Virus record (IMG/VR): IMGVR_UViG_3300030118_003601
Location: 1-30,388 of that record
DNA length: 30,388 nucleotides
Strand: one strand, 5' to 3'
Source of the DNA: a virus
Shown: piece after piece, positions 2,749 through 10,206 of the stretch
How positions within the stretch are numbered: position 1 is the stretch's first letter
How the letters are laid out: every line of letters begins with the position of its first letter
Position numbers and translations under genes: made by a program
The notes under the pieces: generated by a model
The model's input: the letters and a program-made list of their open reading frames with translations, nothing else
Database searches by the model: none
Told to the model about the DNA's origin: nothing

Positions 2749-2997
2749 TCATTTTGGTGGGTTCATATATTCGACACAATCAATGACACAATCCGTCAAC
2801 GTTTGATCCGTCATGTCACCAACACACTCCACCAACCAAATCCAATCCTCATGATACAATTTATTTTCACCATTGATTATCCTGTACAACTTGCGAATAT
2901 GGATTCCACTGTAGTCGCTCAGATTGATAATGGTGATTTGGTGATTCTGAAGTTGGAGCCGGATCCAATCTCCAAATGTGTTCGAAAGTCTTTTCAT
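2749..2997 (-). CDS. Small HTH (XRE-like) protein, family member B
   Basis: An 82-residue protein with a helix-turn-helix at about residues 5-45 (TFGDWIRLQL, ITIINLSDYSG, RKLYRIINGE) and a helical C-terminal part with DCVIDCVEYM. The layout matches the HTH proteins at 32, 5374, 7415 and 7881. The start at 2997 is chosen because a 13-codon SD-equipped leader ORF (2994-3035) ends in ATGA on this codon. It is the first gene left of the iteron region at 3044-3329, so it is the best candidate to bind those repeats as a regulator or origin-binding protein. That link is inference. Confidence 0.75.
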   Translation of the reverse strand: MKRLSNTFGDWIRLQLQNHQITIINLSDYSGIHIRKLYRIINGENKLYHEDWIWLVECVGDMTDQTLTDCVIDCVEYMNPPK

Positions 2998-3035
2998 GTC
3001 CACACCATAACACATCTCCACCCATGGTGGTCCAT
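2994..3035 (-). CDS. Thirteen-residue leader peptide coupled to the HTH gene
   Basis: A short ORF, MDHHGWRCVMVWT, with GAGAGG five bases upstream of its ATG. Its TGA stop overlaps the ATG of the HTH gene as ATGA, the same arrangement used by many real gene pairs in this genome. The HTH gene has no good ribosome site of its own, so the leader probably delivers ribosomes to it. The leader's SD lies at the edge of the three-copy iteron array, so protein bound there could affect both transcription and leader translation. Confidence 0.45.
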   Translation of the reverse strand: MDHHGWRCVMVWT

Positions 3036-3043
3036 AAATCCTC

Positions 3044-3073
3044 TCACACCAGTTTCACACCAGTTTCACACGT
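3044..3073 (-). repeat. Three-copy 11-bp iteron array (leftward)
   Basis: On the minus strand GTGTGA occurs at three sites with an exact 11-bp period (plus-strand TCACAC at 3044, 3055 and 3066), inside units ACGTGTGAAAC, TGGTGTGAAAC and TGGTGTGAGAG. A 19-base stretch, ACGTGTGAAACTGGTGTGA, is repeated in opposite orientation in the six-copy array at 3267-3329. One unit per helical turn means every copy faces the same side of the DNA, as in protein-binding iterons. It sits just upstream of the leader peptide and the HTH gene. Confidence 0.85.
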
Positions 3074-3266
3074 ACATCAACCGGGTATCATATCGAGTTT
3101 TATGGAAAAATAGACCAAAATACACCACTTTTTTGCATTTGCACCGCTTCAACTTACATCAACCCCATGGATATAAGATAAAAAATGTTTTTAGTTAGAA
3201 AATCATATATTTTAGTATATATTTTTGGTATGTAATCGGTTTTGTCGATGTTGTAGAGTTTTCGAG
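3074..3266. other. AT-rich intergenic core, possible replication origin
   Basis: There is no convincing gene in this stretch. It lies between two inverted iteron arrays and becomes strongly AT-rich at about 3175-3235 (long A/T runs with TATATT, TTTAGTATATA). A direct repeat, TACATCAACC, occurs at 3073-3082 and 3155-3164. Iterons beside an AT-rich unwinding segment are the standard form of many phage and plasmid origins. The region also divides leftward and rightward transcription, so a purely regulatory role is possible. The genome has its own primase and helicase, which require an origin somewhere. Confidence 0.5.
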
Positions 3267-3329
3267 ACGTGTGAAACACGTGTGAAACTGGTGTGAATTA
3301 CGTGTGAAATTGGTGTGATCTACGTGTGA
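3267..3329 (+). repeat. Six-copy 11-bp iteron array (rightward)
   Basis: GTGTGA starts at 3269, 3280, 3291, 3302, 3313 and 3324, an exact 11-bp period over six units. The two bases before each core are AC, AC, TG, AC, TG, AC, giving a partly alternating 22-bp pattern, and the four bases after it drift from AAAC to TTTT. The array ends 15 bases before the -35 box of a rightward promoter, the position expected for an activator or repressor, and also fits an initiator-binding origin array. The opposite array is at 3044-3073. Confidence 0.9.
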
Positions 3330-3344
3330 TTTTTTACTAGTTGT

Positions 3345-3373
3345 TTGACAATGTGTAAAGAATACCTTACAGT
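3345..3373 (+). promoter_or_regulatory. Rightward sigma70-type promoter
   Basis: A perfect -35 box TTGACA at 3345-3350, a 17-base spacer and a -10 box TACAGT (4 of 6 to consensus) at 3368-3373. Transcription would begin near 3380 and lead directly into the plus-strand gene at 3427. The six-copy iteron array ends 15 bases upstream of the -35 box, so its binding protein probably controls this promoter. Confidence 0.65.
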
Positions 3374-4057: not shown

Positions 4058-5377
4058 CTATTTTTTGAGAGGCTTCCAAACTCGATGTTTCCCACGTCGT
4101 TTTGACTCGTATCCCAACAAAATCATGATGGCCGCTATCCTTTTGGCGTTGCCAGTGTGGGAGATGTGCATTGGCAAGTCAAGCGCCTCAATGATGTCAT
4201 TCGTGGTGGTGTCTTGTGCTCCATCTCCACGCTCCGTCATGATTTTGTGAACCTTATAGGCCCATGGATCATCCACGAGAAAAGCGGTTTGATAATCTCT
4301 CAACATCTCCTCAAACTCCGGATCCAACCACCATTTGACTCCGGTTTTGTAAAAGTGGACCGCCTCGGCCCATATTTGTTCTTTGTGGGTCTGAAGATAC
4401 TGAATGTTGATTTTGTCGAGGATTTTGAACACCCAAAACCGTCGCTCTGGACCATCATCCATGAATTGATAATTGTTGGTTGTACCCACAAAACACGTCC
4501 TCCGTTGTCTCTTGACTGGTAGACGGCCATAACTAGGACGATACAAATCCTCGGATGTGGAGAGAAATTGTTTGGCCAAATCGGCGCTCTTTCCTTGCAG
4601 GTCCTTCAACTCTGCAATCTCCCATATCCATGTCCCACTTTGATGGATTTTCTCCATGGCGTCTTTGGTTCCAATAGGGATGTCCGACCGGTTGAAGTAT
4701 TGACCAGCCATGATCTCCATGGTCATCGACTTCCCCACACCTTTTGGACCCACAAAGATTGGGAATGTGTGGACATGACAGCCCGGTTGATAGATTCGAG
4801 CCACAAATGAGATCCACATGAGAGCCGACATCCGTTGGATCAATGGACGATACTCATCCACCGTCTCACACATCAACACATCCTCGGCCAAATTCTCAAT
4901 CCGTGGAGTATTGTCCCATTCTGGAAGCGCCTCCAACCAATCTTTGATTGGTGTGTGGATTCTCATGTGGGAGACTCTCAAAACGGCTCCCTCGAGGGCC
5001 TTATTGGATACCGTATAGCGATAACGGACCTCCATATCCAACGCCATGTCCTCAATCACGTCATCACTCACCAACTGACCTCTCCAAAGTATTTGGTTCG
5101 CATGTTCCCAAAAACAAAGAGACTTGTATTGTGGATCATTCTCCAAAATGAGATTGGTGTTGATTCGATTTGTCCGAGGTCTGACCGGTTTTTTGAGGTT
5201 GCCATGGTCATCGTATTGAGGCGCCGGCTTTTGGAGTTTGTCCCACGTGGTTGGATCCGCTCCGATTGGGAGTGTGGGATCCACTGTGGACTCGACATCA
5301 TCCACCATATGGATACCCAACTCTTTGGCCATCGCCAAAAGTCTCTCTCTCGCTTCCTTTTGTTTGTCTGTTGTCAT
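4058..5377 (-). CDS. VapE-type replicative helicase (virulence-associated E family)
   Basis: A 439-residue protein with the VapE/superfamily 3-like ATPase core. Walker A GPKGVGKS is at 210-217, Walker B WIWEIAELK at 250-258, the sensor strand CFVGTTNN at 296-302 and the arginine-finger motif ERRFW at 311-315. The N-terminal 200 residues contain the usual linker and winged helices, including WLEALPEWD. These proteins are predicted or shown helicases that open the origin and work with an AEP-type primase, here the gene at 6449. GGAG lies nine bases upstream and the start overlaps the preceding HTH gene as ATGA. The length is typical. Confidence 0.88.
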   Translation of the reverse strand: MTTDKQKEARERLLAMAKELGIHMVDDVESTVDPTLPIGADPTTWDKLQKPAPQYDDHGNLKKPVRPRTNRINTNLILENDPQYKSLCFWEHANQILWRGQLVSDDVIEDMALDMEVRYRYTVSNKALEGAVLRVSHMRIHTPIKDWLEALPEWDNTPRIENLAEDVLMCETVDEYRPLIQRMSALMWISFVARIYQPGCHVHTFPIFVGPKGVGKSMTMEIMAGQYFNRSDIPIGTKDAMEKIHQSGTWIWEIAELKDLQGKSADLAKQFLSTSEDLYRPSYGRLPVKRQRRTCFVGTTNNYQFMDDGPERRFWVFKILDKINIQYLQTHKEQIWAEAVHFYKTGVKWWLDPEFEEMLRDYQTAFLVDDPWAYKVHKIMTERGDGAQDTTTNDIIEALDLPMHISHTGNAKRIAAIMILLGYESKRRGKHRVWKPLKK

Positions 5378-5688
5378 TTTGGTAGTCTCCGATTTTTGTA
5401 TTGTTTGATTGATTTGTTGTTTGGATCGTTGGATTTGATGATGAGGTGGACCGCCTTATCCCATGTGACTCTCCACAAAACTGGATCATCCACCAACACA
5501 TCAATGATTTGGATGAGACGTACAAATTGGAGTCTCTCAGGTCGTTGACACCACTTCTTTACTGTTGGCGGTGTGACATCCAACGTGAGAGCCAAATCAT
5601 CAATGGTCATGTCCTTTTTGGCCAATGTTGTCACTAGCCAATCACCAAATGGACCGGAGCCCGCTGGGATTAAAATGTCATATATCAT
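5374..5688 (-). CDS. Small HTH (XRE-like) protein, family member C
   Basis: A 104-residue protein with a helix-turn-helix at about residues 13-50 (PFGDWLVTTLAKK, MTIDDLALTLDV, PPTVKKWCQ) and a C-terminal helical segment with DDPVLWRVTWDKAV. Its FG-x-W-L start, helix order and C-terminal part align by eye with the HTH proteins at 32, 2749, 7415 and 7881. GGAGGGTGA precedes the ATG, and ATGA overlaps join it to the cytosine methylase upstream and the helicase downstream. It may regulate the replication block or act as a replication accessory; both are inference. Confidence 0.78.
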   Translation of the reverse strand: MIYDILIPAGSGPFGDWLVTTLAKKDMTIDDLALTLDVTPPTVKKWCQRPERLQFVRLIQIIDVLVDDPVLWRVTWDKAVHLIIKSNDPNNKSIKQYKNRRLPK

Positions 5689-6452
5689 TCACCCTCCAAA
5701 AGGTCATCCAATAGACCGGATTTGAGTATTTGATCACCCACCCATTGTGAGCACTGCGGGACGATGGCGTTACCCAATGCCTTCAATCGAGCCAACCTAT
5801 TGGGAAGCCCATCATCCATTCGACAAAATGGGGATGGATACGCAGCCCGGTTCCAATAATTGTCTCCTCGTTGTATCCCTCCAATTTGGCTATCTCCACC
5901 CCGAGATCTCGGTCTCTCCTCCAACATGATGGACTCATGTTGTTTTTGATGTCGTGACATGTCGGAGTAGGCAACACAAAACCAGCGCTCTCTGAGGTGT
6001 GGTGCTCCAAATTGTCGAGCAGATACAATCGTCCATTCGCAATCATACCCGATTTGGGCAAGGGATCCGACCACGTCTCGTCCTCCCACTCGAAGCACCT
6101 GTTTAACATTTTCCATGATAATGAGCCTAGGTCGAAGATCGTTAGCAACTCTCCACATTTCCCACCATAAACCGGACTTTTCTTCATTTTCTAAACCCTC
6201 CATTTTTCCTGCTATGCTGATAGATTGACATGGGAACCCTCCAATCAATACGTCCACCGGGGCGACGTTGTGTTTTGTGATGTCTCTGACATCGTTATAG
6301 ATAGTTGCTTTTGGCCAATGTTTGGAGAGTATCTTTTGACAAAACTTATCTCTCTCCACTTGCCAAATGGTCTCAGCATTCACCCACGAGCGCTCCAATC
6401 CCAACTCAAACCCGCCTATTCCGGAGAAAAGTGATCCAATTTTTACAGTCAT
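5685..6452 (-). CDS. dcm-like: C5-cytosine DNA methyltransferase
   Basis: A 255-residue Dcm-type enzyme that transfers methyl from SAM to C5 of cytosine. Motif I is GSLFSGIGGFELGLE (6-20), the catalytic motif IV GGFPCQS (71-77) with Cys75, motif VI MENV (113-116), motif VIII QFGAPHLRERWF (147-158), and the GN motif of X is ALGNAIVPQ (225-233). The target-recognition region, about residues 160-205, is very short, so the recognition site cannot be read. It probably protects phage DNA from restriction. ATGA overlaps join it to the primase and an HTH gene. A second frame inside it, 5783-6187, has its own SD (see that entry). Confidence 0.93.
   Translation of the reverse strand: MTVKIGSLFSGIGGFELGLERSWVNAETIWQVERDKFCQKILSKHWPKATIYNDVRDITKHNVAPVDVLIGGFPCQSISIAGKMEGLENEEKSGLWWEMWRVANDLRPRLIIMENVKQVLRVGGRDVVGSLAQIGYDCEWTIVSARQFGAPHLRERWFCVAYSDMSRHQKQHESIMLEERPRSRGGDSQIGGIQRGDNYWNRAAYPSPFCRMDDGLPNRLARLKALGNAIVPQCSQWVGDQILKSGLLDDLLEGE
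5783..6187 (-). CDS. Nested alternate-frame ORF inside the cytosine methylase gene
   Basis: A 134-residue frame lying wholly within the methylase gene, shifted relative to it. Its ATG has GGAGGG (6196-6201) at an ideal eight-base spacing. The translation does not look like noise: LSWKMLNRCFEWEDETW, LPKSGMIANGRLYLL, HHTSESAGFVLPTPT and FVEWMMGFPIGW resemble, from memory, a family of phage proteins annotated beside cytosine methylases. The same bases encode methylase motifs VI, VIII and the segment RMDDGLPNRL. This suggests a genuine overprinted gene, or conserved methylase motifs that leave a recognisable shadow in many phages. A function cannot be assigned. Confidence 0.45.
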   Translation of the reverse strand: MKKSPVYGGKCGELLTIFDLGSLSWKMLNRCFEWEDETWSDPLPKSGMIANGRLYLLDNLEHHTSESAGFVLPTPTCHDIKNNMSPSCWRRDRDLGVEIAKLEGYNEETIIGTGLRIHPHFVEWMMGFPIGWLD

Positions 6453-7333
6453 GATAATTTCTCCAATTTACCCCACCATCCACATGAGTTGACGTGATTA
6501 CATGATGGCCATTTTGTTGAGTTGGCTGTTGATGGATCAATTGAATAGAACACCGAGCGCCGTCCACAGGATGGACATGGGATGTGTTTTATATATTGAC
6601 CCACGATAGACCCACCGGCGTTGATTCCAACTGATTGTCTCAACTGTGGATCCATCATAGCACTCTCCAACGATTGTGGTTTGTTACGGTCAAATGATGG
6701 TCGTGGTTTTGGTTTTGGGAGTTTAATGTGGTCATATTTTAACTTTAATGGCTCTCCAATCCAATACCCACTCCGGTGATACTGAGATGGGTGACATGGA
6801 TGGGAATGTGGCCATTGTTTGGACCCTTCGACGGTCTCCATTTTGGAGTCACGTGGCCATCCATACCGAAAGTAGACCCGCGCCAAATCCTTGATGGCTT
6901 TGGTGTCTGGTACTCCAATCCCAATCACATCCATCCACAACTCAAAGGAGGCTCTCCACACTCTCTCCCAATCCGCTTTTGGAAGTGGGACCGCCAATGG
7001 GATTATCACACGATACTTTTGATGAGATGGTGAGTGGGAGGCGCTGGTGTGAGCGATGGTGGTCCATCCACGTTGAGCAAACAGACACCACATGTCAAAC
7101 GTGGAGTCACCATCATCCATGTCGTAGACCAACATGGAAATGGATTGAGCGTTGGAAGTTGACCGGGTTCCATCAAAGGTGGTGGGACTCCACAATGGAA
7201 GCCGTGATTTGTCCTCAATGGATCGATGGATGGGTGTGGAGAGTCCTCGACAAATGGACTCCACATCCATGTTGATTTTTTGTCCACGTCGTTGGTGGAT
7301 CGTGTCGAATAGTGTTATATTGATTCCAGACAT
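6449..7333 (-). CDS. Primase-like replication protein (AEP/PrimPol type)
   Basis: A 294-residue protein with features of an archaeo-eukaryotic type primase domain. The metal motif VYDMDDG is at 69-75, a HTSASHSPSHQKYRVIIP stretch at 95-112 supplies the S-x-H and arginine positions, and VYFRYGWPRDS lies further on. The C-terminus carries a probable zinc ribbon: CPSCGR, then CNHVNSCGWWG, at about 245-290. Such primases make the starting primer and pair with VapE-type helicases, present at 4058. The helicase and primase are separate genes here, with a methylase and an HTH gene between them. GGAG lies 11 bases upstream. DNA polymerase must come from the host. Confidence 0.75.
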   Translation of the reverse strand: MSGINITLFDTIHQRRGQKINMDVESICRGLSTPIHRSIEDKSRLPLWSPTTFDGTRSTSNAQSISMLVYDMDDGDSTFDMWCLFAQRGWTTIAHTSASHSPSHQKYRVIIPLAVPLPKADWERVWRASFELWMDVIGIGVPDTKAIKDLARVYFRYGWPRDSKMETVEGSKQWPHSHPCHPSQYHRSGYWIGEPLKLKYDHIKLPKPKPRPSFDRNKPQSLESAMMDPQLRQSVGINAGGSIVGQYIKHIPCPSCGRRSVFYSIDPSTANSTKWPSCNHVNSCGWWGKLEKLS

Positions 7334-9522: not shown

Positions 9523-10206
9523 ATGAACCTTTTGACGTGGTGCAAAATGAAAAACTCCAACTATCCAATCCACTTTGTTGACATTGAGACCACTCATTTT
9601 GATTGGAGAGTGGGTGAGATTATTGAGGTGTGTATTTGGACCTCGAAGGATGGCGGCCACACCATCTCGGACCGTTACCACACGTACATCAAACCACAAC
9701 ATTTGGAGAGAGCCAATCCACGAGCGTTGGAGGTCAATGGATATACGGATGAGCGGTGGTCCATGGCTCCACTGTGGGAGGATGTTTGTGGTGAGATCTT
9801 TCGTATTCTGGAATATGGAATTTTTTGCGCTCACAATGTAAATTTCGATTGGTATTGGCTCGACCACCACATCAAATCCACCAGCGGTCAAAAGATCACG
9901 TGGAGAAAACTGGACACCCAATCATTGGTTTGGGAACACATCCCCACTCAAAGCGCCTCCATGTCCAAACTCCGGACATTGTTGGGTTGGTCTCATTATA
10001 ACGCTCACACCGCTCAAAAGGACGTTGAGGACCTTGTGAGGTTGTATAAACTATGTGTCCACACCACCATTGGACACACTCCAGACATTGACGCCATCAA
10101 AGACCATGTGGAAGTTGTGAGACGGCGTGGAGATGATCACGTTTATCTCACCATCATGGATGTGGACGCTATGATCAAATTGATTCGATTATCTCAAAAT
10201 CAATAA
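9523..10206 (+). CDS. DnaQ-like 3'-5' exonuclease (DEDDh)
   Basis: A 227-residue exonuclease of the RNase H-like DnaQ family. The DEDDh residues are visible: FVDIETT (Asp20, Glu22), CAHNVNFDW (Asp109) and AHTAQKDVEDL (His162, Asp167). Members remove 3' nucleotides from DNA or RNA, either for proofreading or recombination. No phage polymerase is present, so it may act on its own or with the host polymerase. It is one of only three plus-strand genes. The start is uncertain: ATG 9523 lacks an SD, and ATG 9547 has only a weak GGTG. Its stop overlaps the end of the convergent small ORF at 10200, and a plus-strand terminator follows at once. Confidence 0.9.
   Translation: MNLLTWCKMKNSNYPIHFVDIETTHFDWRVGEIIEVCIWTSKDGGHTISDRYHTYIKPQHLERANPRALEVNGYTDERWSMAPLWEDVCGEIFRILEYGIFCAHNVNFDWYWLDHHIKSTSGQKITWRKLDTQSLVWEHIPTQSASMSKLRTLLGWSHYNAHTAQKDVEDLVRLYKLCVHTTIGHTPDIDAIKDHVEVVRRRGDDHVYLTIMDVDAMIKLIRLSQNQ

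Follow-up and report, generated by a model that had tools for sequence, protein, structure and literature searches.

Inverted 11-bp iteron arrays beside a VapE-type helicase gene: a probable replication origin in an uncultivated tailed phage

Two inverted arrays and the genes around them

The window considered here is the whole of a 30,388-bp virus record from IMG/VR (IMGVR_UViG_3300030118_003601), and the element of interest within it is a pair of short-repeat (iteron) arrays that point away from each other around an AT-rich core, a candidate replication origin in the neighbourhood of a gene for a VapE-type AAA+ helicase (Table 1). An initial annotation of this DNA had described GTGTGA repeats with an exact 11-bp period, in a minus-strand set of three and a plus-strand set of six, sharing a 19-base unit in inverted orientation and standing about 195 bases apart around an AT-rich stretch, with partly alternating AC/TG flanks. 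On each of these points the description holds: all neighbouring copies in both arrays are spaced by exactly 11 bp, the 19-base unit ACGTGTGAAACTGGTGTGA occurs on the minus strand at 3055-3073 and on the plus strand at 3278-3296, the bases ahead of GTGTGA do partly alternate, and the gap measures 197 bp. An inverted pair of 30 nt is 93% complementary, and the AT-richest 70 bp of the entire window (84%) begins at 3167, inside the core. With any 6-mer and any fixed period from 8 to 24 allowed, the longest run in the window is six copies; when the whole window was shuffled 30 times with its dinucleotides preserved, no run exceeded three. Searches against Rfam and for tRNAs gave no match.

Table 1. 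Arrays, core and neighbouring genes in the window (HTH, helix-turn-helix; ORF, open reading frame; aa, amino acids)
Feature	Position	Strand	Remarks
HTH90, small XRE-like HTH gene adjoining the left array	2749-3021	-	rival candidate binder
Left iteron array	3044-3071	-	GTGTGA x3: 3044-3049, 3055-3060, 3066-3071; 11-bp period
Core between the arrays	3072-3268	.	197 bp, 69% AT; likely melting region
Right iteron array	3269-3329	+	GTGTGA x6: 3269, 3280, 3291, 3302, 3313, 3324; 11-bp period
ORF, 71 aa	3427-3642	+	sole rightward ORF by the arrays; not conserved
ORF, 127 aa	3696-4079	-	between vapE and array
VapE-type AAA+ helicase, proposed initiator (Rep)	4058-5377	-	PF05272 E=6e-57; PDB 7PDS PriRep1 E=9e-27
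VapE C-terminal winged-helix domain, residues 371-436, proposed iteron reader	4070-4267	-	AlphaFold2 (AF2) model
Small HTH protein	5374-5688	-	between primase-like gene and vapE
C5 methyltransferase	5685-6452	-	between primase-like gene and vapE
Primase-like protein	6449-7333	-	separate gene upstream of vapE; PHROG primase families E=1e-8

Nearly all genes of the window lie on the minus strand, and those for the primase-like protein, the methyltransferase, the small HTH protein, VapE and the 127-aa ORF sit to the right of the arrays and are transcribed towards them. The locus resembles those of phage-inducible chromosomal islands (PICIs) and Staphylococcus aureus pathogenicity islands (SaPIs), where a primase gene precedes rep or is fused to it, in having a primase-like gene upstream, here with the methyltransferase and the small HTH ORF in between. 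The 127-aa ORF remains beside the proposed origin even in relatives with a swapped replication module. Because the window also encodes a terminase large subunit, portal, major head protein, tape measure and lysis genes, it represents a tailed phage and not a satellite. Two further features of its gene content may be recorded: five small XRE-like HTH proteins are encoded in a single 30-kb genome (32-613, 2749-3021, 5374-5688, 7415-7900 and 7881-8141), and a DnaQ-like exonuclease (9523-10206) lies on the plus strand of an otherwise almost wholly minus-strand genome.

VapE itself belongs to the AAA+ helicase class of SaPI Rep, as its family and structure matches indicate, and the nearest solved structure is PriRep1, determined with double-stranded DNA. 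An AF2 model of VapE, built from a 35-sequence alignment, has a mean predicted local distance difference test score of 87 overall and of ~66-85 in the C-terminal domain. It matches the PriRep1 fold along almost the full chain, C-terminal winged helix included, with a Z of 31.3 over 377 residues, spanning 42-439, at a root-mean-square deviation of 8.1 that reflects differently placed domains. The modelled chain ends in helices followed by two strands, the pattern of a winged helix. By analogy with SaPI Rep and with Cch2 of the staphylococcal cassette chromosome mec (SCCmec), whose C-terminal domains bind iterons downstream of the gene (PMC7581432), this predicted winged helix is the proposed reader of the iterons.

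Conservation of the arrays and their inheritance with vapE

A search for the same array in related phages, which had been suggested as a check, found the layout in nine of them. Eleven contigs were recovered by VapE (79-94% identity) and two more by the repeat pattern, and all nine relatives that reach far enough carry three plus six copies in inverted orientation, the six-copy array consisting in each of five exact copies and one single-mismatch copy, in register. The core is 197 bp long in eight of the complete relatives and 198 bp in the ninth, and between clades its sequence is only ~57-66% identical in pairwise comparison, insertions offsetting deletions; a length so fixed over a sequence that turns over speaks for a geometric constraint. 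All nine have exact DnaA boxes, two to eight in each and often 12 bp apart, and with one exception these are confined to the array region of the locus. No host was identified: relatives of VapE or of the terminase large subunit (terL) were not found in the genome collection by scans with short peptide patterns, which are weak evidence of absence.

Which protein the repeats follow can be read from natural swaps of the replication module. Throughout the GTGTGA family the motifs HTGNAKRIA and LGYESKRRG of the VapE C-terminal domain are invariant, and the relevant segments of that domain and of HTH90 are both nearly so, whereas the recognition helices of four other small HTH proteins (HTH104, HTH161, HTH86 and HTH32) vary under a constant iteron. 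Five contigs (L133, L134, L135, L137 and L160) are of the same phage type as the window: terL is 73-76% identical to that of the window in L135 and L137 (76% in L137), HTH90 is ~51-58% identical, its helix almost unchanged in the contigs that were aligned (L134, L135, L137), and p142 and rusA are 55-68% identical across the five (57-66% and 55-60%, respectively, among L133, L134, L137 and L160). In these last four, which are syntenic with the window, the primase-VapE module is a different one, at 26-35% identity (L135 does not cover it), primase and vapE moving together. The C-terminal domain of the VapE in the swapped modules gives no significant alignment to that of the window, and L133, L134 and L137 have longer proteins with N-terminal extensions. 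The GTGTGA arrays are gone from the site by HTH90, and TGTCAC/GTGACA iterons, oriented both ways, are found immediately upstream of the new vapE (L133, L134, L137). In L138, with a VapE 54% identical and HTH90 in the same place, the layout is six TGGGATA and three TATCCCA copies at 10-11 bp spacing with a gap of 193 bp, a figure measured with the 7-mer and not claimed to equal the 197-bp core exactly; in L136 (VapE 47%) no cluster stands out clearly between vapE and HTH90. Judged from these comparisons of sequence, the GTGTGA arrays follow VapE and not HTH90, since HTH90 is kept while the array vanishes or changes its word along with VapE. Small HTH proteins, proposed at the outset as candidates for binding the arrays, are accordingly unlikely binders, four having variable helices and HTH90 persisting without the array or beside another word. 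Homology of the iteron words between lineages is not claimed: they share a GGTG-like look yet are oriented differently with respect to the core.

Seven DnaA boxes are present in each of L133 and L137 and none in L138. As a separate observation, boxes of the form TTATCCACA make up dense, helically phased tandem arrays with a 12-bp period in L133 (2256-2408), L137 (1946-2097), L009 (7620-8128) and L067.

The association extends to VapE loci at large. The 350-bp stretch with the most copies of one 7-mer, both orientations counted, lay beside vapE in 25 of 34 non-redundant loci (<85% identical to each other), against 8.2 expected (binomial p ~2e-9, a significance overstated by treating the loci as independent). 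In eight of ten named phages or satellites, including Paenibacillus phage Jacinda, Pseudomonas phage U5, Listeria phage LWP01 and APSE-1, the vapE-side cluster ranked first, alone or in a tie, within the sequence examined, U5 and Jacinda having been inspected before the ten-genome test was set up. Same-strand spacings in VapE-linked clusters are mostly 9-12 bp, and the 11-bp period, initially thought unusual, is therefore an instance of the rule.

A replication origin and its rivals

With the 3 + 6 layout conserved, the core fixed in length, the arrays exchanged together with VapE and DnaA boxes clustered in relatives, comparison strongly supports the suggestion that this is a replication origin, and it is highly probable that the arrays are the origin of the phage, of the PICI/SaPI type, recognised by its own VapE helicase. 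The C-terminal winged helix would read one 11-bp unit per helical turn, successive VapE subunits would bind the same side of the double helix, and the arrays, pointing apart, would hold two helicase assemblies, presumably hexamers, one to each side of the AT-rich core with a constant distance between them. The core would then melt and the helicases load and move apart, so that replication is predicted to run outward from it. The phage primase would lay primers for extension by a host polymerase, proposed as the host's because no polymerase gene was found among the proteins scanned. In close relatives the DnaA-box clusters probably let host DnaA assist. A broader proposal is modestly favoured: that VapE and its iteron origin constitute one exchangeable cassette, the iteron word being recognised by a C-terminal winged helix that evolves quickly, and that satellites and phages share one pool of such replication modules.

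Several observations weigh against this interpretation. The arrays are 3' of vapE but ~730 bp away with ORFs in between (~410 bp in L006, ~430 bp in L138), whereas PICI origins lie immediately 3' of the gene. No such cluster adjoins vapE in a number of loci, e.g. L136, L147, L157, L164, L169, L170, L183, Stiles and BT2. The window has no DnaA box near the array, even with one mismatch allowed, and so does not look like a DnaA-dependent origin; as boxes are wanting in L138 too, help from host DnaA looks optional. Cumulative GC skew, put forward as a check for the origin, falls steadily from ~1 to 24 kb and does not turn at 3.1 kb. Such a course is expected if skew tracks nearly uniform gene direction, and it counts against an origin only in being uninformative. 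Finally, the GTGTGA word was rejected as a diagnostic mark: a pattern scan of viral contigs yielded 69 loci, but arrays outside the family belong to other contexts, a tyrosine integrase being encoded nearby in 17 loci of otherwise unrelated phages, so that nothing can be identified by the word alone.

Among the alternatives, the one that survives best, unlikely as it is, accepts an origin but has the iterons read by another factor, a host protein or an unlinked phage protein, with VapE entering only as the helicase. Iteron binding by VapE is a prediction, and host DnaA boxes do cluster at the arrays in relatives; yet the iteron word changes or vanishes along with the VapE C-terminal domain, the four variable small HTH proteins show no such correspondence with the constant iteron, and C-terminal iteron binding has a precedent in the same helicase class (PMC7581432).

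Marginally less probable still is that the arrays are operators of HTH90, which would coat the repeats and repress both its own leftward promoter and a promoter to the right. HTH90 starts ~25-70 bp from the left array, its HTH segment hardly varies in the GTGTGA family, and a promoter-like TTGACA-17-TACAGT lies at 3345-3373, just right of the six-copy array. Against this, L134 and L137, which lack GTGTGA arrays, and L138, where the word is a different one, all retain HTH90 with a near-identical recognition helix, the rightward gene is not conserved, and distant VapE phages carry equivalent arrays with no HTH90 relative apparent beside those inspected. The related idea in the initial annotation, a master switch between leftward and rightward transcription, finds no support. 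In L004 and L006 unrelated ORFs occupy the place of the rightward ORF, no conserved counterpart of it was found in L009-L013 and L057, which keep the arrays, and sigma-70-like promoter matches around the arrays are no commoner than in shuffles; the model was rejected, the divergent small gene that it needs being absent in several array-keeping relatives. A partition site of a plasmid-like prophage, comparable to parC of plasmid R1, in which two sets of 11-bp repeats serve as binding sites for ParR, would account for the repeat length and the two sets but is very improbable, for both R1 sets have the same orientation and those of the window are inverted, the array follows VapE, and no ParA/ParB, ParR/ParM, TubZ or ribbon-helix-helix family was seen among the window proteins scanned with Pfam and PHROGs (not every ORF).

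The scans also brought up repeat arrays in other settings. GTGTGA repeats at 11 bp, often GTGTGAATCCGGTGTGA..., are found in the 17 otherwise unrelated tyrosine-integrase loci, where they are possibly integrase arm or att sites; repeat-carrying loci in the scan include L016, L019, L030, L043, L045, L048, L063, L076 and L082, among others. In L026, L032, L040, L052, L058, L062 and L078, GTGTGAAA arrays lie beside the gene of a primase-helicase of another kind, which in the three examples scanned combines Prim-Pol and DUF3987 with an HTH at the C-terminus; these arrays are inverted in L032, L062 and L078, and may be an independent origin of similar design. Inverted GTGTGACA arrays with 9- and 11-bp spacing occur near an HNH gene in L022, L031, L038, L042, L047, L064 and L079, a group in which phmmer found no VapE. 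A scan for the two-array pattern, rejected as a route to relatives, retrieved another group of loci, in which the TCACAC repeats are symmetric and no genes are shared with the window; in L110-L127 a highly conserved symmetric TCACAC/GTGTGA block of ~230-250 bp is present without the window genes.

Comparison with known replicons

Classical iteron plasmids of the RepA/Pi/RepE type likewise combine direct repeats with a neighbouring AT-rich stretch, in many cases together with DnaA boxes, but their iterons are of 17-22 bp and their initiators unrelated, none such being seen among the window proteins scanned. In satellite P4, the alpha protein combines initiator, helicase and primase functions and acts with short iterons at ori and crr; alpha differs in being a fused protein, and the distribution of its iterons, as generally described, is also different. 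SCCmec Cch2 is likewise a helicase, the C-terminal domain of which binds short direct repeats downstream of its own gene, although Cch2 is of the D5_N/Primase_Cterm family, has only three 5-nt iterons at its putative origin and belongs to a different element (PMC7581432). The replicon modules of the Vibrio cholerae PICI-like elements (PLEs), in which the initiator DNA-binding domain and the origin iterons are exchanged together (PMC8263062), offer a precedent for the swap of VapE and array, despite a RepA_N initiator and semi-palindromic iterons of ~30 bp (PMC8263062). The swaps described here pair helicase C-terminal domains with iteron words, and thereby provide a data set for how a winged helix reads DNA.

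The nearest likeness is to the PICI and SaPI origins that act with Rep or Pri-Rep, whose identical layout has been described for small phage satellites and called unique to them (PMC6092414; PMC7581432). In common with these the window has a VapE-class helicase with a predicted C-terminal winged helix, nearest in structure to PriRep1, and three plus six iterons around an AT-rich 197-bp core. It differs in that it is no satellite but a tailed phage of full size, encoding terminase, portal, capsid and tape measure, and in the distance of the arrays from vapE; the strict 11-bp period, the 3 + 6 asymmetry and the DnaA-box clusters of the relatives may be further differences. The findings suggest that full-size VapE phages commonly have an origin layout for which phage satellites had been named the only bearers, and shared modules, if true, bear on how satellites and helper phages compete with or avoid each other at replication. 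For uncultivated tailed phages, there is the gain of a predicted and directly testable origin and initiator. The locus in the window is predicted to work like a PICI origin and is very probably a member of that replicon type, without being a PICI.
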